Source of the DNA: Sebaldella sp. | GTDB lineage: Bacteria > Fusobacteriota > Fusobacteriia > Fusobacteriales > Leptotrichiaceae | DNA length: 33,164 nucleotides | Assembly: GCA_018058425.1 (NCBI GenBank) | Contig: JAGOZX010000031.1 | Span: forward strand, 1 to 33,164 | Reading direction: 5' to 3' | Shown here: positions 965 to 24,574 of the stretch, in pieces | Position numbering within the stretch: position 1 is the first letter of the stretch | Layout: the number at the start of each line of letters is the position of its first letter | Made by a program: the position numbers and the translations under genes | Notes under the pieces: generated by a model | What the model was told of the DNA's origin: nothing | The model's input: the letters and a program-made list of their open reading frames with translations, nothing else | The model's database searches: none

Positions 965-1399
965 ATTTTTCCTCCTGTTTTATTTTGATATTTTTAAAAT
1001 TTCAACATCTATTCAGTTTAATTAAATATTTATTTTTAACTACTATAAATTTTATTACCCCAACTAAATATATTAAAACTAAAAACAAACAATTACTATT
1101 GATAGATCAATAATAATATATCATTTAGAATAATTAAATTCAATAAAAAAATATTTCTATCATAAATAAAAAATATTTTTTTAATTATTTTATAAATTTT
1201 ATCTTTTCTATTCCACCCTAATTTTAGTATACTACTACACCATTTTTGCTTAATTATATTTAATATACTAATTTCAAACCACTTTTTTATTAATCAAATA
1301 TTTATAAAAATAATTTTATTTCCCACTTCATTTCTATACATATTTTTATAAAACTCATAATGAACTTTTTTTTATATTTATTATAATTAAAACACAAAA
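965..1399. other. AT-rich intergenic region, no gene
   Basis: This is the spacer between the alkylsulfatase start and the terminator of the adhesin locus. Both strands are broken up by stops and no ribosome site precedes any ORF. The only structure I see is an inverted repeat, TATTGAT-AG-ATCAATA, at 1097-1112, which could be an operator for the sulfatase. I could not pick a convincing promoter. Confidence 0.5.
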
Positions 1400-1453
1400 A
1401 AACAAACTGTATCAAACTCTCATATGATAAGTCTTTAAGTCTACAGTTTGTTT
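1400..1453 (-). terminator. Rho-independent terminator of the adhesin locus
   Basis: AAACAAACTGTA (1400-1411) and TACAGTTTGTTT (1442-1453) form a perfect 12-bp stem around a 30-nt loop that can itself fold. On the minus strand the second arm runs into TTTTTTT. It lies 22 bases after the stop of the last small gene, so it ends the adhesin transcript. Confidence 0.8.
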
Positions 1454-1474
1454 CATAATTAATTTCAATATATT

Positions 1475-1738
1475 TTATTTAATCCCATTATCAACCTTAT
1501 ATTTTTCCATTTGATATAATAAGTCCTCTAACTTTTGTATTTCAGATACATTTTTATCTATCCTGTCATTTACCTTATTTAGTTCTTTTTCTAATCTATC
1601 TCCACTAGTTAGGTGAAGCCTTAAATTCTCCCATTTTCCTCTTGCACCTTCACGTAATTCTCTCTTATATTCATATGTGTTTGCAGAAAAACTTGCTGTT
1701 AGACCAAAAAACACCAAAAATATTATTATTTTTTTCAT
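1475..1738 (-). CDS. Small exported coiled-coil-like protein, function unknown
   Basis: The product has 87 residues. A signal peptide (MKKIIIFLVFFGLTASFSAN) is followed by a charged, predicted helical tail with heptad-like spacing (KELNKVNDRI...EIQKLEDLLYQMEKYK). AGGAGG lies seven bases before the ATG. It is the third of three small exported proteins after the giant autotransporter, with 35 bases separating it from its neighbour. Fusobacterial adhesin loci such as radABCD contain small exported proteins beside the large adhesin; here they lie on the 3' side. A helical FadA-like or periplasmic helper role is possible, but I see no diagnostic motif and do not assign one. Confidence 0.75.
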   Translation of the reverse strand: MKKIIIFLVFFGLTASFSANTYEYKRELREGARGKWENLRLHLTSGDRLEKELNKVNDRIDKNVSEIQKLEDLLYQMEKYKVDNGIK

Positions 1739-2436: not shown

Positions 2437-5400
2437 TTAAAACACTGCTTTAAGCGATACTCCTGCTCTAAAGTCTTCTTGGTTATGGCTTCCTGCTGAG
2501 TACTCTCCTGTTAAGAACACTCCATATCTATCTTCTATTTCTACACCTAATTCAGCTCTAGTTTTTATTGTACCATCTTCTGCTTGTGGTTTTGCTAAGT
2601 CATGATAACCGTCTTCCACTGCTACTAATCTTGCTTTCTCTCTTTCATTTAAATCTGCTACTTCATATTCATATGCTAAATCTAAAACACCTTTTAATTT
2701 CCATTCAGTTTTAGCTCCTAATGGTATTGAACCATCTAATTTTATACCAGCTTTAGGTTTTACACTCCAAGCATCGTTTCCATCGACTTTAACTCTTTCC
2801 AATCCATCTTCTTCAAATGCAGGTGTCATTACATACATTATTTCTAATCCTATATATGGTGTAAAATTACTATTTTTATTTATAGTTATTTCTTTTCCAA
2901 ATAAGTTATTCGAAGTTATACTGTATGTTTGGAAAGTACCATTCATTTCTGATCTTCCTGATACATCCCAGTCTATATTTCTATCTACATCATGATTACT
3001 TACTCTACCTAAAAGATCATTTCTTAATATCCAGTCATTTGTTTGGTATTTATTATGAAAACCAATTTGAACTGTGTCTACCCATTCTTCACTATCATTA
3101 TCATCATTAAATTCAAAGCTTGTATGAGCGTAACCTAATGAGTACCCTATTGTATGCTTATATGTTCTTTCTATTTCTCTAAGTGCCAATACTCCCACAG
3201 TTTCATAATCATAATCTAATACTCCAGTTGTGTTTTCTTTTACACTTCCTTTTCCTGTTATTATATTTATTTTTACATTTTCTTTTGTATTATTTTTTGA
3301 ATTTTGTAATAAGTCTAATGAACTTCCAAATATATCAGCTATAGTTTCTTCTCTTTGATTTATATTCGCATAAACATCTCCTGCTAAGCTTGAAACATTC
3401 TTTCTGAAAGATTCTTCATTAGTTATTTGATCTATTTTGTCATAAATTTTCCCTTTTTCATCTTTACCACTAGAAGTTAGATAATTATCTTCTAATACTT
3501 TTCCAAATCCTTCATACCAAGTTCCACCTGTATATAAGTTATAGTCTTTTCTTTGAGCATAAATATCATATCCGCCTTTTAGATTTTTCACTGGTGTAAC
3601 ATTCCAAGTCAATGAACCACTTTTCATAAGTAGACTTCCTGTTGGTGTTGTTATTTGACCATTATTTATTAACAATACATTTTCTATTTTATATGTATTA
3701 GCTGTCGTCCCTTGTGTATATGTGGGTGCTATTGTTATAGGATCTATTACAGCTAAGCTGTTTGATTGAAAATATGGTTGTTCTGAAGAATATATAATAA
3801 AGTCATGTTCTTCATTGTCAGGCCCTATAGCTTTCCCCATCTGTAATCTAGTTGGATCTGGTGCTATAACTAAGTTTAATCCTTCTAATCTGAAATTATC
3901 ATTTACAACTACCAGACCAGATGTTCTTAGTATTGGTTTTACAAAATTACTTGATAGACTATCTATGTCTGTGGCCTTTGATGTAGAGGCTACTGATGGA
4001 TCAATATATATATTTCCACTATTAAGTATTACTGTTCCTGATGTTGTTAATAATCCTACACTGCTTGCTCCATATAATTGTATACTTCCATTATTTTCAA
4101 TAATTGAGTCTGATAACACATGAATTCCTGATGAATTATCACCTCTCATTATTATAGTTCCGTTATTTGTTACTTTAGAATTTTGTACTGCTATTCCTGT
4201 AGAATTATCACCTGTAAGTTCTATAAGTCCATTATTTACTGTATTCATATTAAGTGAATACATTCCAATTGCTCCCTGCGAGCTTGATGTTATATTCCCA
4301 TTATTTGTCATTACAGGCTGAGAAGATATAGACGATATATTTGTTACTGTACTATCACCATACATTCCAACACCATTTATCCCTACTTTTATTGTAGAAG
4401 AAGCTCCATTTGTAATAGTTGACTCAACTCCATATATTCCCACAGAGTAGTTGCTATTTGCTGTATCTATAGTCCCATCTGCGTTATAAACAACTATTGA
4501 ATCTCCTAAATTCATATTTCCATTATTTAGAACTGTTCCATTCTCTACATATATTCCTGTGTTTCCTAATCCGGCTGTTCCTATTATATCACCATCATTT
4601 ACTAGATTTCCTCCGATAATAACGAATCCATTATTATTATTTCCATTCATTAATACATTAGATGTATTTGAGACATTTGCAGCTTCTAAAGTAATTACAT
4701 ATGTAGAATCACCATTCATCTTTACTTCTCCAGTTGTAGAGGTATTATTAAATGTTCCCCCTTTTGTTAGAACAAATCCAAATGATCCTTGTCCCATCAA
4801 TATGTCATTATTAGAGTTTACATTTACTACACCTGTAGAAAGTCCATAAACACCTACTGACTGTGCTCCCATCTCTAACTGACTGCCTGAACTAAATGTT
4901 GCTGTTCCTCCATCAAAATATACTCCTATTGCCTGATCTCCAATTTTCAAAAGTCCATTTTGATTTACTATACTTCCAGCATTATAAATTCCTACTGATC
5001 GATTTCCTGCTGTTATATTGTTAGAATTTATTACTCCTGCTGTACCATTATCATAGTATATACCTGCGCTTGAATCTAGAATACTTGTAGAATCTCCTAC
5101 TGTTATAGTACCTGTATTATTTACTACTTGTGATCCTGCTCCACCTGTATATATCCCTACTGATCTGTCTCCTGTAAGTGTTATTGTCCCGGCATTATCT
5201 ATACTTCCTGTTAAGTTATCTGAATGAATTCCTATTACATCTATTTTTACAGCACTTAAATTTCCAAAGTTAGCAACTGTATCTCCATTTTTTATATAAA
5301 GTGCGTCAGAACCTTTACCTACTGTGATATCTCCATAGTTTGTAATTTTTGAACCGCTATCTTTTACACTAATTCCAGTAGCATTATCTCCTACATTTAT

Positions 5401-8400
5401 TATTCCTGAGTTATATGCTCTTGCTCCATTTTTAGCATATATTCCTGTTGAACTTCTTTGTAAGTTTATATTCCCTTCATTTACTACTTCATAGTCTGTA
5501 TATCCTGCTATAAATGGTACTGTAGAAGCAGCTAGTCCATCAACCGCTATTCCTGTCTGTCCTTCTCCTGTTCCATTTACAGTTACGTTAGTGCCAAATC
5601 TTATTACTGAATTTTCTCCTGTAATTGCTGTAACATTTTCAGTTCCCAACTCTACCACATTATTAAATGAATTAGTAAAGTTAAACTGCGCTGTTCCTAA
5701 TAAGCCTAAAATAAATGAAGCTCCTGGTGCTGTACTTTGTATTCTTAAGCTTTCTCCTAGTCCTGTTATACTACCTGTAGAATCAAAATAGAAGATTGCA
5801 CCATTTGTTCCAGTAACATTTACATCTATATTTCCAGTTGCTGTTAAGTTTTCATTTCCTGCTAGATATAATCCCACTGCATTATTTCCTACAAGGTCTA
5901 AAACTAGTGAATTTATTCCAACTTCAGTATTTTCACCATATATTCCTATACCATCTTCACCAACTTTTATTCCACCATCTACTGTTAATGTTGATCTATT
6001 AGCGAAAACTCCAACTCCCTCTGTAGAAGCTGACATATCTATCAATGAAGTACTTCCTAATGTAATCGTAGAATCTGTGATAGGTACTGCTACATCTGTA
6101 TTCACAGCTAATAGTCCAAATGATTTTCCAGATGCTGAAACAGATGATATTGTTCCATTATTTACTATCTCTATTTTCTTATCTCCATAAGCTGGTGCTA
6201 ATGCTCCTAAAAGGTTTACTCCGTATATCCCAACTCCAGAAGAATTTATATCTATAGTACCTGTATTCTCAATTCTCGAACCATTCGCTCCTAATAAGGC
6301 TATAGAATTATCTCCTGATAGTGTTATTGTTCCTGAGTTACTAATCTCTCCATAATCTGCTACTATAGCAACAGAATTATCTCCTGATAAATTTATTATT
6401 CCTCCTGCATTATCAATAACTATATCTGATCTAACACCACCAATAAAGTTCTTTTGTGCTATTGCTTTTTCATTATCTGAAAATCCTGTTATTATAATTC
6501 CGGGTGATAAAGTAACTTTAGATGAAGTAAATTCTGAATTATTATAAGCATCATTTGGATTATCCAAGTCTACATTTTGATCTATAATCAACTCACCTTT
6601 ATTTATTAAGAAAGTGCTAAATGATGTCACAGAAAGTGGATCTACATTAACTTTTGTCCCTGTTAACATTGTTAGTGATCCTGGTACTAAACTACTTAAA
6701 TTAGTGGTTCCTCCTGTTGATTCTATTACAAATAACCTTGCACTTTGATCTGTTAGATTTACATTTAAAGTTCCTGCTCCTGTAAATATACTATTTAAGA
6801 AAGTTTGTATTCCTGCATCAGAACTGTCTCCTTTTTGATAAAATCCTGTTCCTCCAGCTCCTATCTCAGCTTGTACTGTACCCGACACTAAGTTAAAAGA
6901 TCCTGTTGGAGCTAATCCTGTAAATGATGTATAGAATAATATTCCATTATCATTTGCTTTTATTGTTGCTCCATTATCTAAATTAATAACTGAATCTTCA
7001 GCATACAGTGCTACTGCTGATCCACTTGCTGAACCAGTTGCCTCTACCACTCCACCTGTTATAGACGTATTTGATAAATTTCCCTTACTGTAAACCCCTA
7101 CACTTTGATTGGCATTTACCGTTACACTTCCTCCTGATATATTTACTATTCCATTGTTATTATATATTCCTACTGATCTATCTCCAACTAAATTAATTAT
7201 TCCACTATTATTTCCTGTAGCTCCATTTGTTACTATGATTCCTTGTGTATCAGTAGGATAGTTTCCTAAAACATCTTGTTGTAATTCTATAGTCCCTGTA
7301 TTAGTAATAGTTGATAGACCGTCTACTCTTAGCCCTGTTGACTCAGCTCCGGTAATTAGTATTTGACCTTTATTTAAAGCTGTACTTGCTGTAACAGTAT
7401 CTGTAGAGTATATCCCTATTGAATTAGCTCCTATTGTAATTACTCCTGCTGTATTATTCAGTATTCTTGTTCCCTCTCCTGCATATATTCCTACTGAATC
7501 ATCCTTTAAGTTCATTTCTCCATTAAATACAATATCATAATTTGGATTTGATGGATCTGCCCAAGTACTTCCTGCATATTGTCCTTTAGTACCTATACCT
7601 ATTGTACTATTCTCCTCAGAAGTTATCTTAAAGCCTGTATCAAATAGTAAAGAAGCACTGTCTGTACTTATAACTGTTCCTTTTAGTGTGTTATTTAGTG
7701 CCTTTCTTATTACAATCTCATTATTTAGTACAACACTTCTATTTTCTCCTATCATCCCTACTACAAATGTTCCTCCATCTATACTTGTTACTTCTATATT
7801 TCCAGTATCAAATGTATTTATTCCAGATGTTGTATAATCACTTATTTTATATATTGCTGATCCGTCACCATTAATTTCCACGCTTCCCATTTGAAGAGCT
7901 GAATCCACTACTTCATCGAAATAATAGCCTACTGAATTTTCTCCTAATTTTCTTACTCCGCCAATTCCTGTAAGAGTACTATTTTTAGCATATATACCTA
8001 ATCCATTTTCTCCTACTTCTATTTTACCAGCACTGTTAAGTGTTGAATTTATTAACGAAATACCTATACTTCTATTTGTTGAAGCTGCGTTATTATCACC
8101 TATTATAATTTCTGATGCTGAACCTAAGTTTAAAGTAGACTTATTATTAGCTACAACTCCATTATTATCTAAGTATATTCCATATGTTTCTGCATTTAAT
8201 ATTCCTGCTGGTAATAATTCTATTTTCCCATTATGATTTATATTTATAGAATCATCACCATAACCTAAAATTGCTGAGCTTGTAGCTGTCGTTCCATCAA
8301 AATAATTTCTAGCATAAATTCCTACTGATTCTTTTCCTAATACATTAATAGTTCCATTATTTGTTGTTATTGAACCATTTGCAGAAAGTACTCCTACTGA

Positions 8401-11400
8401 ATTTTCTCCACTTAGATTTATTATTCCAGCAGCATTATTATTTATCAATCCATAATCAGCCGCCATCCCTGTTGCTTGATTCTTAGTTAGATTAATAGTC
8501 CCATTATTTGCAACCACTATATCATTTATATCTGTTCCTGCTGGTGTAACTCTTTTATAGTTAGTCTGTGCCATAGCAACTTGACCATCAAGTGAATCTG
8601 TAATTGTATACCCATTTGCTAAAGTTACTTTTGATCTAGACATCTCTACACCATTATAAGCATTACCTAAAAATGTTAAAGCCACATTTTCATCTATTAC
8701 TAAATCTCCAAGATTTATAGAGTATTCTTTATAGTCTGTTCCTGATGCAGTATTTGTAGTATAGTCAATTCCATTTACTATTCCTACTGATGGGATTCCA
8801 GATAAAGTTAATGTGTTTATAGGATCATTCCATCTTAATAAACTAGAACCATTTTCCATATCTAAAAACATTGTTCCTGTACTGCTACTTGATACTAAAC
8901 TATTTAACACTCCTGATATCCCTGTTAAATCCTGTCCTTCTACATAAAATGCCATTCCTCCATTATGAATTGTAGCAGTAGTTGCATTCATTATCTTTAA
9001 CTGCCCTGCTGTTCCAACTCCTCCTGAAGGATAATTATACATAAGCAGTCCTTCTGTTCCTATATCAAATGTTCCACCTGATACTGTTATTGTAGAACCA
9101 TCTGCATATAAGGCAACTGAACCATCGCTTACATTTATTGTTCCATTTGATATTTCTGTATTTGAACTTGCTCCTTTTGAATAAACGGCCACTCCTCCAA
9201 GAGAACCTAACGTTACAGTACCACCTGACATTTTAAAATTTCCTTGATTAAAGATTCCTGTTGATCCATTACCTGTAAATTCTAGTGTTCCACCTTTTTG
9301 GTATCCTTCACTACCTAATGTTACATATATTCCTGTTACATCAGTAGCAAAAACTCCTGGTGTTATTTCTTTAGCTGTTATTGATCCATTATTTATAACT
9401 CCTGCTTCTGTCAATACACTTTTTACAGCTGAAGAATAAAGACCCACTGAATTTGTTGAAATTTCTATATTCCCATCATTTTGAACTATTGAATCCAAGC
9501 CTTCTGCATACATTCCTGCTGAATTTGTCCCCATGCTTATCATATTTACTCCAGCACTATTTAAAGCTTTTGCTCCACCTTTTACATATATTCCTGTGGA
9601 TTTATCTCCAGTTAAACTTATATTTCCTGCATTTGTCACTTCATATGGACCAGCTATATATGATACTGTAGAATCTTTAGGTCCATTTACACCCACACCT
9701 ACTGTATTATTTCCAGTTGAAATTAAACTTGCTGTAGAAGTTAATGATATTACCCCACCTGTTGTTCCAAATATAGTCGCATTTTCTGTGCTTCCAATAT
9801 TAGTTGCTACACTGCTAGTGTAAGCAACTTTACCTACACTTCCTAAAATAAATTTATATGGAGTAACTATCATACCAGTTTGATTATCAATATTAGATGC
9901 ACTTAGGGTAAATGTCGATCCAGGTTCTAAACTTAATAATGAAGCTCCATCACCTGTAATAACAAATTTACCTGTTTGAGCCCCTGTTTCATTATATTGA
10001 CTGTTTCCAGCTAAGTAAACTCCTACTCCTCCAGCACCTATTTTAATACTACCTGAACTTGCATTTATCTGGCTTCCACCTATTGCATAAATTCCTGTTG
10101 AAGAACCAGCATTTATTGTTCCACCATTTATATTTACAATTGCTTTATCTGTAAAAATTCCTACTCCTGTATCTGAAGAAGACATATCTATATTTGACGG
10201 TGCATTTAATGTTATAGTTGCATCAGTTAACAGATTATTATTGTCTACGTATATTCCTACTCCTGATGAAGCTGCTGATCCGTTATATAAAATATTCCCT
10301 GTATTTGTTATGTTTACAGTCCCTGTTCCATAAGCTACTGTTAATGCATCAAACTTATTCGTTCCATATATCCCTACTCCTGAATTTCCAGTTCCTGTAG
10401 TTCCTACATTTATTGTCCCTGTATTAGATATAATTGAACTATTCGCCCCAAATATCCCTGTTGATTTATCACCTGATGTAGTTATAGTTCCTGCATTTGT
10501 TATTGTTGCAAAATCTCCTGCAATCCCTGTAGAGCTAGCTCCGCTTAAATTAATAGTACCACTATTATTTAACACTATTGCTCCTACTCCTGCACTTCCA
10601 GTGTAGTTTCTTTGTGCTATACCTATTTGATTACTTCCTGTACCAGTCACTGTGAATCCACTTCCTACTTGAATTGATGAAGATACGAAGTTTACTCTTG
10701 GGAAATATTGACTCCCTGTTCCTGATAATGTCGTATTTCTATCTACCAAAACATTTGCTTTATTTATAACAAAGTATCTATAAGTTCCTCCACTTAAATC
10801 ATTTATTGTTGTATTTGTTACTGCTGGAGTACCTAACACCCCTGCTAAAGCATTTAAACTAAGAGTTCCTGTTGGTTGATCCCAACCCACTAGAGTTGAA
10901 CCTGTTGCCATGTTCAAAGCTAAATTCCCAGTTGTTACTAAACTCGAGATATTTGGAGTATTTCCACCTGTTATGTAAAATGCTGTTCCTCCATTATTTA
11001 TATTACCAGTTGCAGTTCCAGATAAAGCTCCTGTTCCACTTCTATAAAACATTAAACTTTTATCGTTTACATTTATTACTGTTGGATTAAGAAGTCTTAT
11101 TGTAGCTCCAGTTTCAGAATAAAGAGCTGTTGAGCCCCCGCTTACTGTAACTGTTCCTCCATTTACATTTGTATTAGAGGCTGTTTTAGCATAAACTCCC
11201 ACACTACTTGGAGTACTAGCTGTAATACTTCCTCCTGTCATAGTAAATGTTCCCACATTATAAACACCTGCTGAACTATTACCTGTGATATTTATTATTC
11301 CTGAATTTGTTCCTGTTGATGTACTATCAACGACAACCATCCCTATTGAATTTGTCCCTGTAACAGATATTTGTTTAGTTGCTGTAGCTGTATTTATTAT

Positions 11401-13587
11401 ATTTCCACCATTTATAGAAAATAATCCTGCTGAACCAGTCCCTGCTACTTGTATAATTCCACTATTAGTTCCAGTGGCTCTAAGAGCTGTAGTACTAAAT
11501 CCATTAGCTATAATTCCTAAATCTGAGGTTCCATTAACATTTATTGTTCCTGTATTTATTGCTGTAGGAGTTCCATTTCCACCAGCAGCAACAGTTCCAT
11601 AATCTACTCTCATTCCTAGATTAGAAGGTCCGCTTACATTTATTGTTCCTATATTTGTAATATTATCACTAGGGCTTACCTTCAAGATCATTCCTGAATT
11701 CCCTATTCCTCCAGAAACATTTATTATTCCATTATTTAACACTAATCCTGTATATGCTCTTATAGAATTAGCTGCGGTAAGAGCTGTATCTTCTATAACT
11801 GCTATTCCAGAAGATCTAGAAGTTCCTACTCCATCTCCTCCAGTTATATTTATTGTTCCTGTATTATTAAATACCATATTTGTTTGACTTATTCTAGACG
11901 AAAGTTTTAAACCATAACTTTCTATTCCACCCATACTTATAGTACCTTGGTTTAATACTCTAGCTGGCACATTTGAAGAACCAGGAGCGTATACTTGTAT
12001 ACCTATTGACTTCTGTCCTTTAAAATCTATCAGACCAGTAGCCTCATTAGTTAATAAATAACTGTTATTTATATTACTGTCATTATCTTCAAAAGTTAAG
12101 ATTATTCCAACTTTATATCCTGTATACCCAGCAGCATTTCTAGTTACTACTATTTGTCCTCCTCCTGCATAAGCTGGAAGGTTTAAAGTAGCAGTTCCAT
12201 TCACAGGTAGCACTGCATTTAGTGCAGCATTACCTACTTCTCCTGCATCTGTTATTGTTTTTCTATTTATCATTTCTCTTTTTCCAGTTCCACCTAGATC
12301 ACTTTGTACTTCAAAGCCAACTACTAATGGTCCAATTAAATTAACTGTTCCATTATTTACAAGAGTTCCATTTGTGGCATTATCCACTGTGGCTATTCTA
12401 GAGCCACCAACTAAAAAACTTTGTGTATTCCAAGTTCTTCCTGCTCCAGTTTCTGTTGTTTTTTGTGCTGGTGTCAAAGTATTTATAGAGTCAATAGTTA
12501 AGTCTGAACCTAATGTAGCTGTTCCTCCTGCATTTTGTGATCCATAATCAAAGTATACTTTTAATAATGTAGAGTTAAATCCATAAGAAGCTCCCCATGA
12601 ATATCTAATCGCTGGCGTATTAGCTGTTAGTGTTGTTCCACCTAATCTTCCAGTAGTAGAACCTAATGTTATAGCATAATTGGTACCATTATCTCCAAAA
12701 GACATTGGATTTCCCGATAACGGTCCTCCATCTACTCCATTAGTCGTACAATTCGGAATCATATAATTACAAAATGACCCTAGCTTAATGTTAAAAACTG
12801 GAGGGCTTGATAGTGCTGGTGGTGTTATATTAAAAGTAATTGGATTAAATTCATTTGCTGATACGGTTGGTACTTGAGGTGTTGTTGGAATTTTTATAAC
12901 TGGTATATCATTAACAACTGGAGCTTGTATTTGCGGCTCACGTGGTGTTAATACTATAAATTTATTTACTTGAGGTGTTCCCACTATTACAATCGGTGGA
13001 GATGCCGTTACATTTACATCAATTGTTTCTGGAATTCTAGGTGTTGTTAGATTAACTGTTACAGGTGTAAAATTCCCAATATTTATTTCTGGAATTCCTA
13101 CAGCAACAGGTGCATCTAACTGTATTTCATATGGTATATTTTCAATAACATCAACTGAACTTTTATACTGTACTGTGGCTTCCTTTGATACTTTTACAAT
13201 TTTAGTTACAATTCCTCTTTGTGGCTCAGGTTCTAGCTCTGGCTGTTTTATAGGTGCAATTGCCTGATAAGGTTTCTCATCAGAGCTTCCACCTCTATGC
13301 TTATTTTCGTAAAAACCTGTGAAAAATACTTGCCACTCCAAATATTCTGGCTTTACAATGTAGTCCCCTTGTTTATATAGATCTTTTAATTCTTTATTTC
13401 TTGCTCTCAAGGCTTTCTCAATAAGATCATAATTTTTATTATTTGACACTCCAGAATTGAAATTCTCTGTCATTGTGTTTTGTAATTTATTATAATCATT
13501 TGATGGTATGTTATCAGTACTAGCTTGTGCTAATAACAACGAGCTGAGTGCTAACGTAAATAAAAGAATTTTTTTACTATTTCTCAT
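2437..13587 (-). CDS. Giant fusobacterial autotransporter adhesin (type Va)
   Basis: The product has 3716 residues. A signal peptide (MRNSKKILLFTLALSSLLLAQ) is followed by the fusobacterial autotransporter-associated N-terminal region, about residues 25-110 (ALRARNKELKDLYKQG, then YLEWQVFFTGFYENK). A Pro/Val-rich linker leads to an SFCNYMIPNC segment with two cysteines. The passenger is a very long beta-helix of short turns of the type NxGxIxxxGxxSxGIxxxxG. It contains three large related blocks starting near residues 930, 1615 and 2320. The last roughly 290 residues form the outer-membrane beta-barrel and end GVSLKAVF, with the C-terminal Phe expected for BAM-dependent insertion. RadD, Fap2 and related Fusobacterium adhesins share this layout; the ligand cannot be read from sequence. 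The start has GGAGAGATGAG just upstream. Confidence 0.93.
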   Translation of the reverse strand: MRNSKKILLFTLALSSLLLAQASTDNIPSNDYNKLQNTMTENFNSGVSNNKNYDLIEKALRARNKELKDLYKQGDYIVKPEYLEWQVFFTGFYENKHRGGSSDEKPYQAIAPIKQPELEPEPQRGIVTKIVKVSKEATVQYKSSVDVIENIPYEIQLDAPVAVGIPEINIGNFTPVTVNLTTPRIPETIDVNVTASPPIVIVGTPQVNKFIVLTPREPQIQAPVVNDIPVIKIPTTPQVPTVSANEFNPITFNITPPALSSPPVFNIKLGSFCNYMIPNCTTNGVDGGPLSGNPMSFGDNGTNYAITLGSTTGRLGGTTLTANTPAIRYSWGASYGFNSTLLKVYFDYGSQNAGGTATLGSDLTIDSINTLTPAQKTTETGAGRTWNTQSFLVGGSRIATVDNATNGTLVNNGTVNLIGPLVVGFEVQSDLGGTGKREMINRKTITDAGEVGNAALNAVLPVNGTATLNLPAYAGGGQIVVTRNAAGYTGYKVGIILTFEDNDSNINNSYLLTNEATGLIDFKGQKSIGIQVYAPGSSNVPARVLNQGTISMGGIESYGLKLSSRISQTNMVFNNTGTINITGGDGVGTSRSSGIAVIEDTALTAANSIRAYTGLVLNNGIINVSGGIGNSGMILKVSPSDNITNIGTINVSGPSNLGMRVDYGTVAAGGNGTPTAINTGTINVNGTSDLGIIANGFSTTALRATGTNSGIIQVAGTGSAGLFSINGGNIINTATATKQISVTGTNSIGMVVVDSTSTGTNSGIINITGNSSAGVYNVGTFTMTGGSITASTPSSVGVYAKTASNTNVNGGTVTVSGGSTALYSETGATIRLLNPTVINVNDKSLMFYRSGTGALSGTATGNINNGGTAFYITGGNTPNISSLVTTGNLALNMATGSTLVGWDQPTGTLSLNALAGVLGTPAVTNTTINDLSGGTYRYFVINKANVLVDRNTTLSGTGSQYFPRVNFVSSSIQVGSGFTVTGTGSNQIGIAQRNYTGSAGVGAIVLNNSGTINLSGASSTGIAGDFATITNAGTITTSGDKSTGIFGANSSIISNTGTINVGTTGTGNSGVGIYGTNKFDALTVAYGTGTVNITNTGNILYNGSAASSGVGIYVDNNNLLTDATITLNAPSNIDMSSSDTGVGIFTDKAIVNINGGTINAGSSTGIYAIGGSQINASSGSIKIGAGGVGVYLAGNSQYNETGAQTGKFVITGDGASLLSLEPGSTFTLSASNIDNQTGMIVTPYKFILGSVGKVAYTSSVATNIGSTENATIFGTTGGVISLTSTASLISTGNNTVGVGVNGPKDSTVSYIAGPYEVTNAGNISLTGDKSTGIYVKGGAKALNSAGVNMISMGTNSAGMYAEGLDSIVQNDGNIEISTNSVGLYSSAVKSVLTEAGVINNGSITAKEITPGVFATDVTGIYVTLGSEGYQKGGTLEFTGNGSTGIFNQGNFKMSGGTVTLGSLGGVAVYSKGASSNTEISNGTINVSDGSVALYADGSTITVSGGTFDIGTEGLLMYNYPSGGVGTAGQLKIMNATTATIHNGGMAFYVEGQDLTGISGVLNSLVSSSSTGTMFLDMENGSSLLRWNDPINTLTLSGIPSVGIVNGIDYTTNTASGTDYKEYSINLGDLVIDENVALTFLGNAYNGVEMSRSKVTLANGYTITDSLDGQVAMAQTNYKRVTPAGTDINDIVVANNGTINLTKNQATGMAADYGLINNNAAGIINLSGENSVGVLSANGSITTNNGTINVLGKESVGIYARNYFDGTTATSSAILGYGDDSININHNGKIELLPAGILNAETYGIYLDNNGVVANNKSTLNLGSASEIIIGDNNAASTNRSIGISLINSTLNSAGKIEVGENGLGIYAKNSTLTGIGGVRKLGENSVGYYFDEVVDSALQMGSVEINGDGSAIYKISDYTTSGINTFDTGNIEVTSIDGGTFVVGMIGENRSVVLNNEIVIRKALNNTLKGTVISTDSASLLFDTGFKITSEENSTIGIGTKGQYAGSTWADPSNPNYDIVFNGEMNLKDDSVGIYAGEGTRILNNTAGVITIGANSIGIYSTDTVTASTALNKGQILITGAESTGLRVDGLSTITNTGTIELQQDVLGNYPTDTQGIIVTNGATGNNSGIINLVGDRSVGIYNNNGIVNISGGSVTVNANQSVGVYSKGNLSNTSITGGVVEATGSASGSAVALYAEDSVINLDNGATIKANDNGILFYTSFTGLAPTGSFNLVSGTVQAEIGAGGTGFYQKGDSSDAGIQTFLNSIFTGAGTLNVNLTDQSARLFVIESTGGTTNLSSLVPGSLTMLTGTKVNVDPLSVTSFSTFLINKGELIIDQNVDLDNPNDAYNNSEFTSSKVTLSPGIIITGFSDNEKAIAQKNFIGGVRSDIVIDNAGGIINLSGDNSVAIVADYGEISNSGTITLSGDNSIALLGANGSRIENTGTIDINSSGVGIYGVNLLGALAPAYGDKKIEIVNNGTISSVSASGKSFGLLAVNTDVAVPITDSTITLGSTSLIDMSASTEGVGVFANRSTLTVDGGIKVGEDGIGIYGENTEVGINSLVLDLVGNNAVGLYLAGNENLTATGNIDVNVTGTNGAIFYFDSTGSITGLGESLRIQSTAPGASFILGLLGTAQFNFTNSFNNVVELGTENVTAITGENSVIRFGTNVTVNGTGEGQTGIAVDGLAASTVPFIAGYTDYEVVNEGNINLQRSSTGIYAKNGARAYNSGIINVGDNATGISVKDSGSKITNYGDITVGKGSDALYIKNGDTVANFGNLSAVKIDVIGIHSDNLTGSIDNAGTITLTGDRSVGIYTGGAGSQVVNNTGTITVGDSTSILDSSAGIYYDNGTAGVINSNNITAGNRSVGIYNAGSIVNQNGLLKIGDQAIGVYFDGGTATFSSGSQLEMGAQSVGVYGLSTGVVNVNSNNDILMGQGSFGFVLTKGGTFNNTSTTGEVKMNGDSTYVITLEAANVSNTSNVLMNGNNNNGFVIIGGNLVNDGDIIGTAGLGNTGIYVENGTVLNNGNMNLGDSIVVYNADGTIDTANSNYSVGIYGVESTITNGASSTIKVGINGVGMYGDSTVTNISSISSQPVMTNNGNITSSSQGAIGMYSLNMNTVNNGLIELTGDNSTGIAVQNSKVTNNGTIIMRGDNSSGIHVLSDSIIENNGSIQLYGASSVGLLTTSGTVILNSGNIYIDPSVASTSKATDIDSLSSNFVKPILRTSGLVVVNDNFRLEGLNLVIAPDPTRLQMGKAIGPDNEEHDFIIYSSEQPYFQSNSLAVIDPITIAPTYTQGTTANTYKIENVLLINNGQITTPTGSLLMKSGSLTWNVTPVKNLKGGYDIYAQRKDYNLYTGGTWYEGFGKVLEDNYLTSSGKDEKGKIYDKIDQITNEESFRKNVSSLAGDVYANINQREETIADIFGSSLDLLQNSKNNTKENVKINIITGKGSVKENTTGVLDYDYETVGVLALREIERTYKHTIGYSLGYAHTSFEFNDDNDSEEWVDTVQIGFHNKYQTNDWILRNDLLGRVSNHDVDRNIDWDVSGRSEMNGTFQTYSITSNNLFGKEITINKNSNFTPYIGLEIMYVMTPAFEEDGLERVKVDGNDAWSVKPKAGIKLDGSIPLGAKTEWKLKGVLDLAYEYEVADLNEREKARLVAVEDGYHDLAKPQAEDGTIKTRAELGVEIEDRYGVFLTGEYSAGSHNQEDFRAGVSLKAVF

Positions 13588-22645: not shown

Positions 22646-22681
22646 ATTGTCATTCTGAGGAACAAAGTGACGTGAGAATCT
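22646..22681. repeat. Possible dispersed-repeat remnant (GTCATTCTGAGG type)
   Basis: ATTGTCATTCTGAGGAACAA, then AGTGACGTGAGAATCT, resembles the GTCATTCTGAG...GAATCT intergenic repeat seen in many unrelated bacterial genomes. Only one copy is in this window, so its repetitive nature here is inferred. Confidence 0.35.
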
Positions 22682-22727: not shown

Positions 22728-22756
22728 AAGACTTAATTTTATAAATTTGTTATAAT
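22728..22756 (+). promoter_or_regulatory. Promoter of hydrophobic peptide mRNA 1
   Basis: TATAAT (22751-22756) with TG-T before it is an extended -10. AAGACT (22728-22733), 17 bases upstream, is a weak -35. It aligns with the TGGACT that occupies the same place in copies 2 and 3, and may be what is left of an RNA terminator that once stood here. Confidence 0.6.
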
Positions 22757-22761
22757 ATCAT

Positions 22762-22893
22762 TAGCTTCCGAAAAGCTAAATATTCTTACGATTGGGGGAA
22801 TGTTATGTTAAAAATTTCTGTTATAATCATTTTTTACTTCATTATAGCTAAAGTTTTATACTAGAACATTCCTCGCCCTAATGGGCTTTTTTT
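22762..22893 (+). other. Peptide 1 mRNA: 5' stem-loop, SD-hiding 5'-3' pairing, terminator
   Basis: The predicted leader starts with the stem TTAGCTT/AAGCTAA, loop CCGAA. CTTACGATTG (22785-22794) follows and runs into the ribosome site GGGGGA. GGAATGTT (22797-22804), directly before the ATG, is exactly complementary to AACATTCC (22865-22872), directly after the stop. The pairing extends to 10 bp with one G-U and covers the ribosome site. GCCC-TAAT-GGGC-TTTTTTT (22875-22893) is the terminator. Full-length mRNA should be translationally closed until processed. Confidence 0.7.
22805..22864 (+). CDS. 19-residue hydrophobic peptide, candidate type I toxin (copy 1)
   Basis: The ORF encodes MLKISVIIIFYFIIAKVLY and stops at TAG. 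It is a single short membrane-spanning helix with a Lys near the C-terminus. Two other ORFs in this island encode the same kind of peptide (all end K-V/R-L-Y). That conservation, the ribosome site GGGGGA five bases upstream and the tight transcript boundaries argue that it is a real gene despite its size. In length and composition it resembles Ibs-type type I toxins, which depolarise the inner membrane. No homology beyond hydrophobicity can be claimed. Translation should be blocked by pairing of RNA 1 with the leader and by the mRNA's own 5'-3' fold. Confidence 0.75.
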   Translation: MLKISVIIIFYFIIAKVLY

Positions 22894-22917
22894 ATTTATA
22901 AATAGTAATTTTTATAC

Positions 22918-22945
22918 TTGCATTTTTTTATAAATATGTTATAAT
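22918..22945 (+). promoter_or_regulatory. Promoter of antitoxin RNA 1
   Basis: TTGCAT (22918-22923), a 16-base spacer and TATAAT (22940-22945) with TG-T before it. The same spacing and extended -10 recur at RNAs 2, 3 and 4. Confidence 0.7.
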
Positions 22946-22951
22946 TATTCT

Positions 22952-23014
22952 ATAAAACAATCGTAAGTATTTTAAATTTCGGATAAAAAAGCTGGACTTA
23001 GGTTCAGCTTTTTT
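22952..23014 (+). ncRNA. Candidate antitoxin RNA 1 (cognate of peptide 1)
   Basis: About 63 nt, bounded by its promoter and a strong terminator (GCTGGAC-TTAG-GTTCAGC-TTTTTT, 22991-23014). CAATCGTAAG (22958-22967) is perfectly complementary to CTTACGATTG next to the peptide 1 ribosome site. TTTCGGA (22977-22983) is complementary to TCCGAAA in the loop of its 5' stem. The middle pairs imperfectly. It has no ORF. It lies downstream of the target on the same strand, so it acts in trans rather than as an overlapping antisense transcript. Confidence 0.72.
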
Positions 23015-23118
23015 ATATGGTTAATTTCACTATTTAAAATTTTAAGAATCTCGTTTTCCTTCTTAAAAAATGTATTTACTAGTGAACAGTAAAGTCAGTA
23101 AAAATATCAATATAGCAG

Positions 23119-23146
23119 TTACATTTTTAGGGAAATATGATATAAT
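23119..23146 (+). promoter_or_regulatory. Promoter of antitoxin-like RNA 2
   Basis: TTACAT (23119-23124), 16 bases, TATAAT (23141-23146) with TG-A before it. The 16 bases before the -35 (from AATATC at 23103) match those before RNAs 3 and 4. Confidence 0.65.
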
Positions 23147-23151
23147 ATTCT

Positions 23152-23215
23152 TGTATAAAACAATCAAAAAATGATTGAATCTGTGAAAAAAGTTGGACTT
23201 AGGTCCAATTTTTTT
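23152..23215 (+). ncRNA. Orphan antitoxin-like RNA 2
   Basis: It has the same promoter layout, the same 5' start (TATAAAACAATC) and the same terminator plan (TTGGAC-TTAG-GTCCAA-TTTTTTT, 23193-23215) as RNAs 1, 3 and 4. The targeting part differs: CAATCAAAAAATGATTG can fold on itself, and CTGTGA follows. None of the three peptide leaders in this window matches it along its length. Either its target peptide lies elsewhere or has been lost. The terminator stem differs from that of RNA 1 by compensating changes, which indicates that it is still under selection. Confidence 0.6.
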
Positions 23216-23306
23216 ATGTGATTAATTTAGTTATACTATATTTCTACTAACTAAAAAACGTACCTAACAGTAAACACCAAAATGAAAAGTAATATCAATA
23301 TATCAA

Positions 23307-23334
23307 TTGCATTTTAAAAAAAATATGCTATAAT
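23307..23334 (+). promoter_or_regulatory. Promoter of antitoxin RNA 3
   Basis: TTGCAT (23307-23312), 16 bases, TATAAT (23329-23334) with TG-C before it; same layout as the other RNA genes. Confidence 0.7.
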
Positions 23335-23339
23335 TATTA

Positions 23340-23403
23340 TATAAAACGATCACAATGTTTTTGAATTTTGGATGAAAAAGCTGGACTTAGGTTCAGTTTT
23401 TTT
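23340..23403 (+). ncRNA. Candidate antitoxin RNA 3 (cognate of peptide 2)
   Basis: About 63 nt, ending in GCTGGAC-TTAG-GTTCAGT-TTTTTT (23380-23403). Three blocks match the leader of peptide 2. CGATCACAA (23347-23355) pairs with TTGTGATTG (23438-23446), one G-U. GTTTTT (23357-23362) pairs with AAAAAC (23432-23437). TTTTGGA (23366-23372) pairs with TCCAAAA (23421-23427). It does not match the leaders of peptides 1 or 3 as well. It lies directly upstream of its target on the same strand. Confidence 0.75.
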
Positions 23404-23410
23404 GTATAAT
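23382..23410 (+). promoter_or_regulatory. Peptide 2 promoter nested in the RNA 3 terminator
   Basis: TGGACT (23382-23387), 17 bases and TATAAT (23405-23410) form the peptide 2 promoter. The -35 lies in the stem and loop of the RNA 3 terminator, and the spacer contains its T-tract. The same arrangement with the same spacing is found at peptide 3. Confidence 0.7.
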
Positions 23411-23416
23411 TATACT

Positions 23417-23539
23417 GGTTTCCAAAAGCCTAAAAACTTGTGATTGGAGGAATGTCATGTCCATACTCCTAACTGTAATTATATTTTTTATGATTATAGC
23501 TAAAGTTTTATACTAGAACATTCCTCGCCCTAAATGGGC
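23417..23539 (+). other. Peptide 2 mRNA: 5' stem-loop and SD-hiding 5'-3' pairing
   Basis: GGTTT (23417-23421) and AAGCC (23426-23430) form the 5' stem with loop CCAA. GAGGAATGT (23447-23455), which contains the ribosome site, is exactly complementary to ACATTCCTC (23518-23526) just after the stop. GCCC-TAAAT-GGGC (23527-23539) would be the terminator, but its U-tract is broken (ATTCATTTAT). Confidence 0.65.
23457..23516 (+). CDS. 19-residue hydrophobic peptide, candidate type I toxin (copy 2)
   Basis: The ORF encodes MSILLTVIIFFMIIAKVLY, TAG stop. The last seven residues (IIAKVLY) are identical to copy 1, while the N-terminal half differs, so the coding sequence has been kept under selection for hydrophobicity and for its C-terminus. 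GGAGG lies six bases before the ATG. Transcription is predicted from the promoter nested in the RNA 3 terminator, so antitoxin and toxin genes form a compact tandem unit. Membrane toxicity is inferred from size and composition only. Confidence 0.75.
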   Translation: MSILLTVIIFFMIIAKVLY

Positions 23540-23563
23540 ATTCATTTATAAAGCTAGTTTCTC

Positions 23564-23597
23564 AGACTTGCACAAGTCTACTTGAAAATGGTAGAAT
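23564..23597 (+). promoter_or_regulatory. HTH gene promoter with operator-like palindrome
   Basis: TTGCAC (23568-23573), 18 bases, TAGAAT (23592-23597) with TG-G before it. AGACTTG-CA-CAAGTCT (23564-23579) is a perfect inverted repeat over the -35. Its position suits autorepression by the HTH protein encoded just downstream. Confidence 0.5.
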
Positions 23598-23645
23598 AAA
23601 TAAAATAATATTAAAATTTCATATCTATTAGGGGTGGGTAATTAT

Positions 23646-23870
23646 ATGATCAAATGTAGGCTGAATATTTTAATGGCTGAAAAAGATATAAGAAGTGTCA
23701 CTGAATTAGAAAGACGGCTAAAAATAAGAAATTTAAATATCTCCAGACAATCGCTACATAAAATTTATCACAGTATTGCTCTTGATAATACAAGACTTGA
23801 TACAATTTTGAAGCTACTTACTTTCTTTAATTGCAAGTTAGAAGATTTATTTATTTGGGATTCTAAATAA
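23646..23870 (+). CDS. Small Cro/C1-type HTH transcriptional regulator
   Basis: The product has 74 residues and is essentially one XRE-family helix-turn-helix domain. It begins MIKCRLNILMAEKDIRSVTE and has the recognition-helix region NISRQSLHKIYH; the C-terminal part (TRLDTILKLLTFFNCKLEDLF) is typical of the short YozG-like group. A GTG four codons earlier is in frame, but GGGGTGGG lies seven bases before the ATG at 23646, which is preferred. Such stand-alone HTH proteins are common in mobile or toxin-antitoxin-rich regions. The gene sits between peptide 2 and an unknown gene. Whether it regulates the RNA/peptide units is unknown; the palindrome over its own -35 suggests autoregulation. Confidence 0.8.
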   Translation: MIKCRLNILMAEKDIRSVTELERRLKIRNLNISRQSLHKIYHSIALDNTRLDTILKLLTFFNCKLEDLFIWDSK

Positions 23871-24022
23871 TTAGATCTTTTTTATTTTCAATTATTGTAA
23901 ATTTTTCTTTACTTTTAGTATAAAATACTATACAATAATTATATTAAGATAGACAATATAAAAAGATTTTAAAATGATTAATTTTTTTCTATCTTTAAAT
24001 AAAAATCTCAAGGAGGAACTAA

Positions 24023-24283
24023 ATGAAAAAAAGCCAAAAAGATCTTATCTTCTACTTTATGGAAGAAATCCAATTAAATGATGAAAGTGAAAATTCACTC
24101 TATAATCAGCAAGAAAAACTATTATCTGAACTAGAAGAAATCCCTATAAACTATCAAGAACTACAAGGTCTAATAACAAGATTATCTGATATGATTGTTA
24201 ACTTATGCAGTGAAATGAAATATACATATTTTGAATACGGTATCACAGCAAGACATGTCTTAGATACTACTATTTTAGAGTAA
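24023..24283 (+). CDS. Hypothetical 86-residue acidic protein
   Basis: A soluble, Glu/Leu-rich protein (MKKSQKDLIFYFMEEIQLND...), likely all-helical, with no signal peptide, membrane segment or cysteine cluster; one Cys lies in NLCSEMKYTYFEYG. AAGGAGG lies eight bases before the ATG, so translation is likely. It is convergent with the peptide 3 unit. The upstream region contains AGTAT-AAA-ATACT near 23919, which may belong to its promoter. I do not recognise the family. In this setting an accessory or phage-derived function is plausible but unsupported. Confidence 0.65.
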   Translation: MKKSQKDLIFYFMEEIQLNDESENSLYNQQEKLLSELEEIPINYQELQGLITRLSDMIVNLCSEMKYTYFEYGITARHVLDTTILE

Positions 24284-24320
24284 TTATTCTTAATTCCCCC
24301 TAATATTTTATTTTCAAAAT

Positions 24321-24339
24321 AAAAAAGCCCTTTCGGGCT
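24321..24339 (-). terminator. Terminator of peptide 3 mRNA
   Basis: On the minus strand AGCCC-GAAA-GGGCT is followed by TTTTTA. The GAAA tetraloop makes it stable. It starts 10 bases after the peptide 3 stop codon, beyond the TGTATTCC arm. Confidence 0.85.
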
Positions 24340-24349
24340 GAGGAATACA

Positions 24350-24406
24350 CTAGTAAAGTCTTTTCACCATAATTAAAAATATAATTATCACAAAAATTTT
24401 AAACAT
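24350..24406 (-). CDS. 18-residue hydrophobic peptide, candidate type I toxin (copy 3)
   Basis: The ORF encodes MFKIFVIIIFLIMVKRLY, TAG stop. It shares the aliphatic core and the K-x-L-Y end with copies 1 and 2 but is one residue shorter and has an extra Arg. GGGGGA lies five bases upstream of the ATG. GGAATACA (24414-24407), directly before the ATG, and TGTATTCC (24349-24342), directly after the stop, are exact complements. They differ from the copy 1 arms at three base pairs, each time with both sides changed. The unit (RNA 4, then peptide 3) is inverted relative to the others. Confidence 0.75.
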   Translation of the reverse strand: MFKIFVIIIFLIMVKRLY

Positions 24407-24416
24407 TGTATTCCCC

Positions 24417-24449
24417 CAATCTCACGTAAATTGGCTTTTGTGAAGCCAA
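24417..24449 (-). promoter_or_regulatory. Peptide 3 mRNA leader: stem-loop and RNA 4 target site
   Basis: On the minus strand TTGGCTT/AAGCCAA forms the 5' stem with loop CACAA. AATTTACGTGAGATTG follows (24432-24417) and touches the GGGGG ribosome site. RNA 4 can pair with all 16 of these bases (two G-U) and with TCACAAAA in the loop. Confidence 0.7.
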
Positions 24450-24453
24450 TATT

Positions 24454-24482
24454 ATTATACAAAAAAGCTGAACCTAAGTCCA
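24454..24482 (-). promoter_or_regulatory. Peptide 3 promoter nested in the RNA 4 terminator
   Basis: On the minus strand TGGACT (24482-24477), 17 bases and TATAAT (24459-24454). The -35 is part of the RNA 4 terminator stem-loop and the T-tract is in the spacer, exactly as at peptide 2. Confidence 0.7.
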
Positions 24483-24525
24483 GCCGATTTGTCACAAAAT
24501 TTAATTTACATAAGATTGTTTTCTA
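24461..24525 (-). ncRNA. Candidate antitoxin RNA 4 (cognate of peptide 3)
   Basis: About 64 nt with the terminator GCTGGAC-TTAG-GTTCAGC-TTTTTT on the minus strand. CAATCTTATGTAAATT (24518-24503) is complementary to 16 consecutive bases of the peptide 3 leader with two G-U pairs. TTTTGTGA pairs with the loop TCACAAAA. This is the longest uninterrupted match of the three pairs. RNA 4 is directly upstream of its target on the same strand. Confidence 0.77.
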
Positions 24526-24530
24526 CAATT

Positions 24531-24574
24531 ATTATACCATATTTTCCTAAAAATGCAACTACTACATGGATATT
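24531..24574 (-). promoter_or_regulatory. Promoter of antitoxin RNA 4 with conserved upstream block
   Basis: On the minus strand TTGCAT (24558-24553), 16 bases, TATAAT (24536-24531) with TG-G before it. The preceding AATATCCATGTAGTAG (24574-24559) matches the sequence before RNAs 2 and 3. Confidence 0.7.

Follow-up and report, generated by a model that had tools for sequence, protein, structure and literature searches.

Organization of the island

The window analyzed here, a stretch of 33,164 nucleotides (nt) from Sebaldella sp. (contig JAGOZX010000031.1), contains at 22728-24574 an island of three hydrophobic micro-open reading frames (micro-ORFs) of 18-19 amino acids (aa), which we call T1-T3, and four small-RNA (sRNA) genes, R1-R4. 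We consider it likely that the island represents three members of a new type I toxin-antitoxin (TA)-like family of Fusobacteriota, in which each putative toxin mRNA is matched by its own sRNA. An earlier sequence-only reading had proposed such a multi-copy family, with four RNAs of ~63 nt and three micro-ORFs. All seven elements were found in place and the family assignment is supported; we infer that the peptides are toxic and the RNAs expressed. That reading was incomplete rather than wrong, having overlooked a helix between the ribosome site (Shine-Dalgarno sequence, SD) and an anti-SD, a 5' hairpin whose loop is an sRNA target, and the wider family. The features are as follows; the T1-T3 promoters and the T1 terminator were called from the sequence.

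22751..22756, + strand: T1 -10 box, its own promoter, with no sRNA upstream
22761..22779, + strand: T1 5' hairpin TTAGCTT-CCGAA-AAGCTAA, loop pairs with R1 (TTTCGGA)
22785..22794, + strand: T1 leader site CTTACGATTG, pairs with the R1 5' end
22794..22802, + strand: T1 ribosome site GGGGGAATG, 5' arm of the long-range helix
22805..22864, + strand: T1 micro-ORF, 19 aa, MLKISVIIIFYFIIAKVLY
22865..22874, + strand: T1 anti-SD AACATTCCTC, 3' arm of the long-range helix
22875..22893, + strand: T1 terminator GCCCTAATGGGC and U run
22918..22945, + strand: R1 promoter TTGCAT ... TATAAT
22954..23016, + strand: sRNA R1, partner of T1, encoded downstream of it
23157..23217, + strand: sRNA R2, orphan, no matching leader found
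23343..23405, + strand: sRNA R3, partner of T2, in tandem upstream of it
23382..23410, + strand: T2 promoter TGGACT - 17 nt - TATAAT, within the R3 terminator
23417..23430, + strand: T2 5' hairpin, loop pairs with R3 (TTTTGGA)
23435..23446, + strand: T2 leader site, pairs with the R3 5' end
23446..23454, + strand: T2 ribosome site GGAGGAATG, 5' arm of the long-range helix
23457..23516, + strand: T2 micro-ORF, 19 aa, MSILLTVIIFFMIIAKVLY
23517..23526, + strand: T2 anti-SD AACATTCCTC
24459..24522, - strand: sRNA R4, partner of T3, in tandem upstream of it
24454..24482, - strand: T3 promoter TGGACT - 17 nt - TATAAT, within the R4 terminator
24431..24449, - strand: T3 5' hairpin TTGGCTT-CACAA-AAGCCAA, loop pairs with R4
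24416..24431, - strand: T3 leader site AATTTACGTGAGATTG, pairs with the R4 5' end
24412..24416, - strand: T3 ribosome site GGGGG, start of the 5' arm of the long-range helix
24350..24406, - strand: T3 micro-ORF, 18 aa, MFKIFVIIIFLIMVKRLY
24340..24348, - strand: T3 anti-SD GTATTCCTC

The four RNAs start with AAAACAATC or AAAACGATC at 22954, 23157 and 23343 (+) and 24522 (-), and all have TGGACTTAGGT in the terminator hairpin and a TATAAT promoter. Because R1, R2 and R3 are a tandem duplication (spacings of 201 and 188 nt), R1-R4 are not independent inventions; T3-R4, on the minus strand, is one more copy. The tandem, same-strand arrangement described earlier holds; R3 and R4 lie just upstream of T2 and T3, whereas R1 lies downstream of T1. 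The terminator ascribed to each peptide gene is weak for T2, since no clear U-run follows its GC hairpin.

Coevolution of sRNAs and toxin leaders

Calculated interaction energies in the window agreed with the earlier proposal that three of the RNAs each match their own leader: -23.3 kcal/mol for R1 with T1, -24.0 for R3 with T2 and -27.8 for R4 with T3, versus -15.1 to -5.5 kcal/mol for all nine wrong combinations. Thus, the three cognate pairs were the best of all RNA-leader combinations, as had been predicted. R2 fits no leader well, its best energy (-15.3 kcal/mol) being with a leader in another genome.

To extend this beyond the window, we used covariance models built on the toxin mRNA alone and searched in 98 Fusobacteriota genomes. 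Because these models contain no sRNA, complementarity to an sRNA is independent evidence for a unit. Across 38 units, the mean cognate energy was -25.8 kcal/mol compared to -9.3 kcal/mol for non-cognate pairs, with the cognate sRNA best in 35. In an untrimmed 87 x 87 matrix the corresponding values were -27.8 and -17.0 kcal/mol, and the cognate partner ranked first in 51/87 and among the top three in 70/87. In 56 of the 87 units, 11 of the 14 Fusobacteriaceae units among them, none of 100 dinucleotide-shuffled versions of the upstream DNA paired as well.

The predicted sRNA target consists of block 1, a single-stranded stretch just before the ribosome site (10-16 bp) that ends on the first G of the SD, and block 2, the 5' hairpin loop (7-8 bp). 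For block 1, we scored 351 positions in a fixed register across 27 units from the genus; 323 of them pair, whereas re-dealing the sRNAs and leaders gave 211 +/- 8.7 positions, with a maximum of 249 in 20,000 re-dealings; one unit (G001d) was misplaced by its anchor, which lowered the score rather than raising it. At single positions of this block A-U, U-A, G-C and C-G are all seen. For block 2, where some anchors were misplaced too, 216 positions paired versus 180.5 +/- 5.6 when re-dealt. These tests address sequence complementarity and coevolution rather than binding. Judged from this covariation in both blocks, the predicted pairing is the product of coevolution of pairs, as the sequence-only reading had claimed, and not of mere shared ancestry.

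We considered whether the complementarity could be an artefact of AT-rich repeats and tandem duplication, given that R1-R3 are tandem repeats and the region is AT-rich. However, the pairing is destroyed by re-dealing partners among paralogues, is rarely reproduced by dinucleotide shuffles, and recurs in other genera and in Fusobacteriaceae. The re-dealing test refutes this explanation, to which we assign practically no probability.

A 5' hairpin and a long-range helix in the toxin mRNA

Each toxin mRNA has a hairpin at its 5' end, and the loop serves as block 2 of the predicted sRNA target. The ribosome site, in turn, pairs with an anti-SD of the ATTCCTC type that follows immediately on the stop codon. 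This long-range helix covaries already in a MAFFT alignment of five sequences. In 40 sequences, 92% of the cells of the long-range helix and the 5' hairpin are paired, with 107 double changes, and the covariation is 0.502 compared to 0.188 in shuffles and <=0.08 when the partners are slid; the 40-sequence counts lean towards the model because that alignment, unlike the five-sequence one, was fitted to it. In predicted folds, adding the 3' end lowers the mean unpaired probability of the SD from 0.43 to 0.25, and the sRNA target, the 12 nt that immediately precede the SD, stays open (mean unpaired probability 0.72).

Distribution and layout of the family

The covariance-model search of Fusobacteriota genomes, which the sequence-only reading had suggested, gave 41 matches in 9 of the 98 genomes with the first model and, after the model was rebuilt on 40 sequences, 88 toxin-transcript matches in 28 of the 98, corresponding to about 85 loci. 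The present genome (G000) has 14 matches, one of which is a mirror match, and G001 and G003 have 10 each. Further matches lie in most genomes of the largest sister genus (g6, Leptotrichia-like), and weaker ones in Fusobacteriaceae. In Sebaldella termitidis ATCC 33386 (G003) the family is on the chromosome and both plasmids (NC_013518.1, NC_013519.1), and in Fusobacterium varium (G032) a copy is on plasmid AP017969.1. Copies are carried by pSTERM01, pSTERM02, the F. varium plasmid and a type IV secretion system element. We did not accept one G003 match (G003j), which lacks an sRNA and scores near the threshold, nor the antisense matches, e.g. G000:C20:675-807 (+), which are mirror matches of the self-complementary helix. 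Two pattern matches (L001, L006) are not units, as neither sRNA nor toxin is present.

Nearly all units have the same order on one strand: sRNA promoter, sRNA, terminator, toxin promoter, hairpin, leader, SD, micro-ORF and anti-SD. The toxin -10 box sits only 1-13 nt (median 2) past the U-run of the sRNA, and therefore the toxin promoter and the sRNA terminator overlap; the TGGACT of the terminator is separated from the toxin TATAAT by 17-18 nt in many units. The peptides are 18-21 aa long (29-37 aa in Fusobacteriaceae), and the ratio of synonymous to non-synonymous rates in the ORFs is about 4; by this measure the micro-ORFs are under purifying, coding selection. The longer Fusobacteriaceae peptides (L119, L089, L090, L114), e.g. 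one ending WWWYKNK, form a second class with the same predicted sRNA-leader control, some on plasmid-sized contigs and some as pairs of near-identical copies. Using a model of the sRNA, we found 43 sRNA genes in the four genomes of the genus, about a dozen of them without a toxin-model match.

The sequence-only reading had recognized no named family, and none was found here with Rfam for the RNAs, with Pfam/NCBIfam for the longer peptides of relatives, or with the Pfam Ibs model for the micro-ORFs. Rfam gave nothing over the gathering score in the window, with only far sub-threshold matches in the island; at the loci of 18 relatives its matches were limited to a tRNA and a TPP riboswitch, both outside the units. 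Relatives' peptides of >=20 aa had no Pfam/NCBIfam match over the cut-off, and Ibs_toxin (PF13956) did not match these ORFs even at E 10. An exact ribosome-site/anti-SD DNA pattern, with which near relatives may go unseen, had two chance-like matches to unrelated organisms in GTDB genomes and none in viral contigs. Phage records gave no match, and tblastn of one 29-aa peptide against plasmids found none.

Exceptional units and probable action in trans

Three units depart from the common layout. T1 has no upstream sRNA and is fitted by the downstream R1. In G001a, the adjacent sRNA fits at -11.7 kcal/mol, and a second sRNA ~180 nt further upstream, with its own promoter and terminator, at -27.1 kcal/mol. 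The toxin G000i lies at a contig end, and its matching sRNA (-24.3 kcal/mol) is at the end of another contig; both ends (G000:C124:218 and G000:C172:97) read into a GGGGCTGTCTCAAAA/TTTTGAGACAGCCCC end, so that this unit was probably interrupted by an insertion element. These exceptions, by their predicted pairing, support action of the sRNA in trans.

They also bear on the alternative that the upstream "sRNA" is no separate RNA but the first segment of a single long toxin transcript: a cis attenuator that would either stop early or, when read through, mask the ribosome site by folding onto the leader. The sRNA and leader do lie on one strand within ~150 nt with a terminator between them, read-through transcripts would pair in cis, and the toxin -10 box is less clear in Fusobacteriaceae units. 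However, the three pairs above cannot act in cis, a TATAAT stands right before the 5' hairpin of the toxin mRNA in almost all of the 38 units scored, and orphan sRNA genes exist. On these grounds we mostly rejected a cis attenuator, which seems quite unlikely.

Loss of the toxin with retention of the sRNA was seen repeatedly. The start codon is lost in G003g and G088g, the ORF is truncated in G003h and G003i, and G088d has an in-frame stop; in these units the sRNA is kept and still fits or nearly fits. At another locus (G001:C49; L156 / L014, about 1250-1500, minus strand), an sRNA, promoter and leader precede not a micro-ORF but a gene for a 225-aa DUF1275 membrane protein (Pfam E 2.5e-59), with an sRNA-leader pairing of -26.3 kcal/mol. 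Apparently, the toxin's RNA switch has been captured by an ordinary gene, although a deletion that fused the toxin leader to the DUF1275 gene is as possible as selection for a new use.

The DUF1275 unit would fit a further alternative, that this is an ordinary riboregulated family of small membrane proteins, such as stress or membrane-tuning peptides, rather than a TA system. The purifying selection on the peptides is compatible with that idea as well, and their toxicity is something we infer. On the other hand, copy numbers of up to 13-14 per genome, the plasmid and conjugative-element copies, the double translational lock, the repeated death of the toxin with the sRNA kept, and the orphan sRNAs fit addiction or anti-addiction better, and we regard an ordinary membrane-peptide family as unlikely.

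Several observations weigh against the TA-like family as we describe it. Weak Fusobacteriaceae matches (E around 1e-3) are carried by the independent sRNA pairing, not by the model score. At least eight sRNAs, R2 among them, have no recognizable target, and T6 (G000:C96) has an intact ORF and no detectable sRNA, its sRNA being reduced to its terminator; partners of R2 and T6 were not found among the fetched sRNAs and leaders, a search that covers model matches only. The window peptides (18-19 aa) are too short for profile searches, so that only the Ibs model was applied, without a match. Finally, the predicted SD is partly closed even without the 3' end, at the unpaired probability of 0.43 given above, and in many Leptotrichia-type units the predicted closure by the helix is little or none, so the lock is less certain there.

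Proposed mechanism and comparison with known systems

In the mechanism that we propose for the TA-like family, a single-span hydrophobic peptide would be toxic by membrane action when over-made, and two guards would prevent this. On the nascent mRNA, the ribosome site would be open until the 3' end is made. During that time the ~63-nt sRNA, usually from its own promoter just upstream, would bind the leader at the two blocks, should block ribosome loading and would probably recruit RNase III. Once the 3' end is finished, the anti-SD after the stop codon would close the ribosome site in the long-range helix, as in AapA/IsoA (PMC6733600). Specificity would be private to each sRNA-toxin pair. Transcription of the sRNA may, in addition, interfere with that of the toxin gene, as the promoter of the latter lies within the sRNA terminator. 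The peptide would become active once the sRNA decays, e.g. after loss of a plasmid or conjugative element, or once the locked mRNA is processed.

Two properties of type I TA systems in general were found here: a small hydrophobic peptide under coding selection and an RNA complementary to the toxin mRNA. AapA/IsoA of Helicobacter and Campylobacter also has a small hydrophobic peptide, and its full-length mRNA is inert through a long-distance 5'-3' interaction that closes the SD (PMC6733600, PMC8167048), comparable to the helix predicted here. However, IsoA is antisense and overlaps the toxin gene, whereas the sRNA here is apart, usually in tandem upstream, and pairs with the leader only. Furthermore, the closed aapA1 mRNA is reported to resist its antitoxin (PMC8167048), while the sRNA site here is open in the predicted closed fold. 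TisB/IstR, ZorO/OrzO, ShoB/OhsC and DinQ/AgrB of E. coli likewise have a separate sRNA with limited complementarity to the 5' untranslated region upstream of the start codon, but these are divergently transcribed (PMC4147584). The units here are nearly all in tandem with the toxin promoter in the sRNA terminator, and differ further in the two-block target, the anti-SD lock and the phylum.

Ibs/Sib of E. coli is also multi-copy with very short hydrophobic peptides of 18-19 aa, and the Ibs peptides look similar in size and composition. Sib is a ~140-nt antisense RNA covering the whole ORF (PMC4147584), in contrast to the ~63-nt RNA here, which is not antisense, and the Pfam Ibs model misses these ORFs. 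The Ldr/Rdl cassettes of E. coli (LDR repeats) resemble the island in their tandem, multi-copy chromosomal arrangement and ~60-nt antitoxin RNA (PMC4147584); they differ in that Rdl is antisense, the peptides are 35 aa long and there is no tandem sRNA. Parallel orientation is named as a possibility in a review (PMC8167048), so we regard the tandem layout as uncommon but not unheard of.

A 2025 paper states that, until its own cyanobacterial case, type I systems had been known from three phyla only, Proteobacteria, Firmicutes and Tenericutes (PMC12390103). We found none for Fusobacteriota in the open-licence literature, and this is apparently the first type I TA-like family in that phylum. If correct, Fusobacteriota would join the phyla with type I TA systems with about 85 mostly unannotated loci, one of them on an F. 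varium plasmid. The family would offer dozens of orthogonal sRNA-mRNA pairs as a natural test set for how such pairs diverge and yet remain matched. Its gene layout, in which the toxin promoter lies within the terminator of the antitoxin, is unusual, and the DUF1275 unit may be an example of a toxin's RNA switch put to use by a normal gene.

More tentatively, the unit of sRNA, terminator/promoter, hairpin and leader might be a portable RNA control cassette of Fusobacteriota that diversifies in specificity. In this view it would serve at least three peptide classes that look unrelated, maintain many private sRNA-target pairs as orthogonal in one cell, leave guardian sRNAs that outlive their toxins, and have been taken over by an ordinary membrane-protein gene (DUF1275, G001:C49); we hold the idea to be nearly as probable as its opposite.

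Genomic neighborhoods and other features of the window

Two units of the present genome (L064, G000:C76:9000-23000) lie inside a type IV secretion/conjugation region; that of L064 encodes a coupling protein, VirB11-like and VirB4-like ATPases, and ArdC. The pSTERM01 unit is flanked by MazEF and a YARHG gene, TIR and SIR2 proteins are encoded close by, and the S. termitidis cluster (L120) has an HTH_26 gene and a Bro-N gene nearby. In the window, a small HTH_26 regulator and an 86-aa ORF (23634-23870, 24023-24283) lie between T2 and T3, and similar ORFs occur near the S. termitidis cluster and near T6 (L008).

Elsewhere in the window, a 3,716-aa ORF (2437-13587, minus strand) encodes a repetitive, autotransporter-like surface protein. 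A palindromic repeat, TCATTCTGAGGA..GACGTGAGAATCT, at 22650-22681 is found at 56 other places in the genome (57 in total, <=2 mismatches), with paired changes (TCATCC..GGATCT, TCATTG..CAATCT) that indicate a conserved hairpin. This dispersed repeat lies upstream of both T1 and T6.

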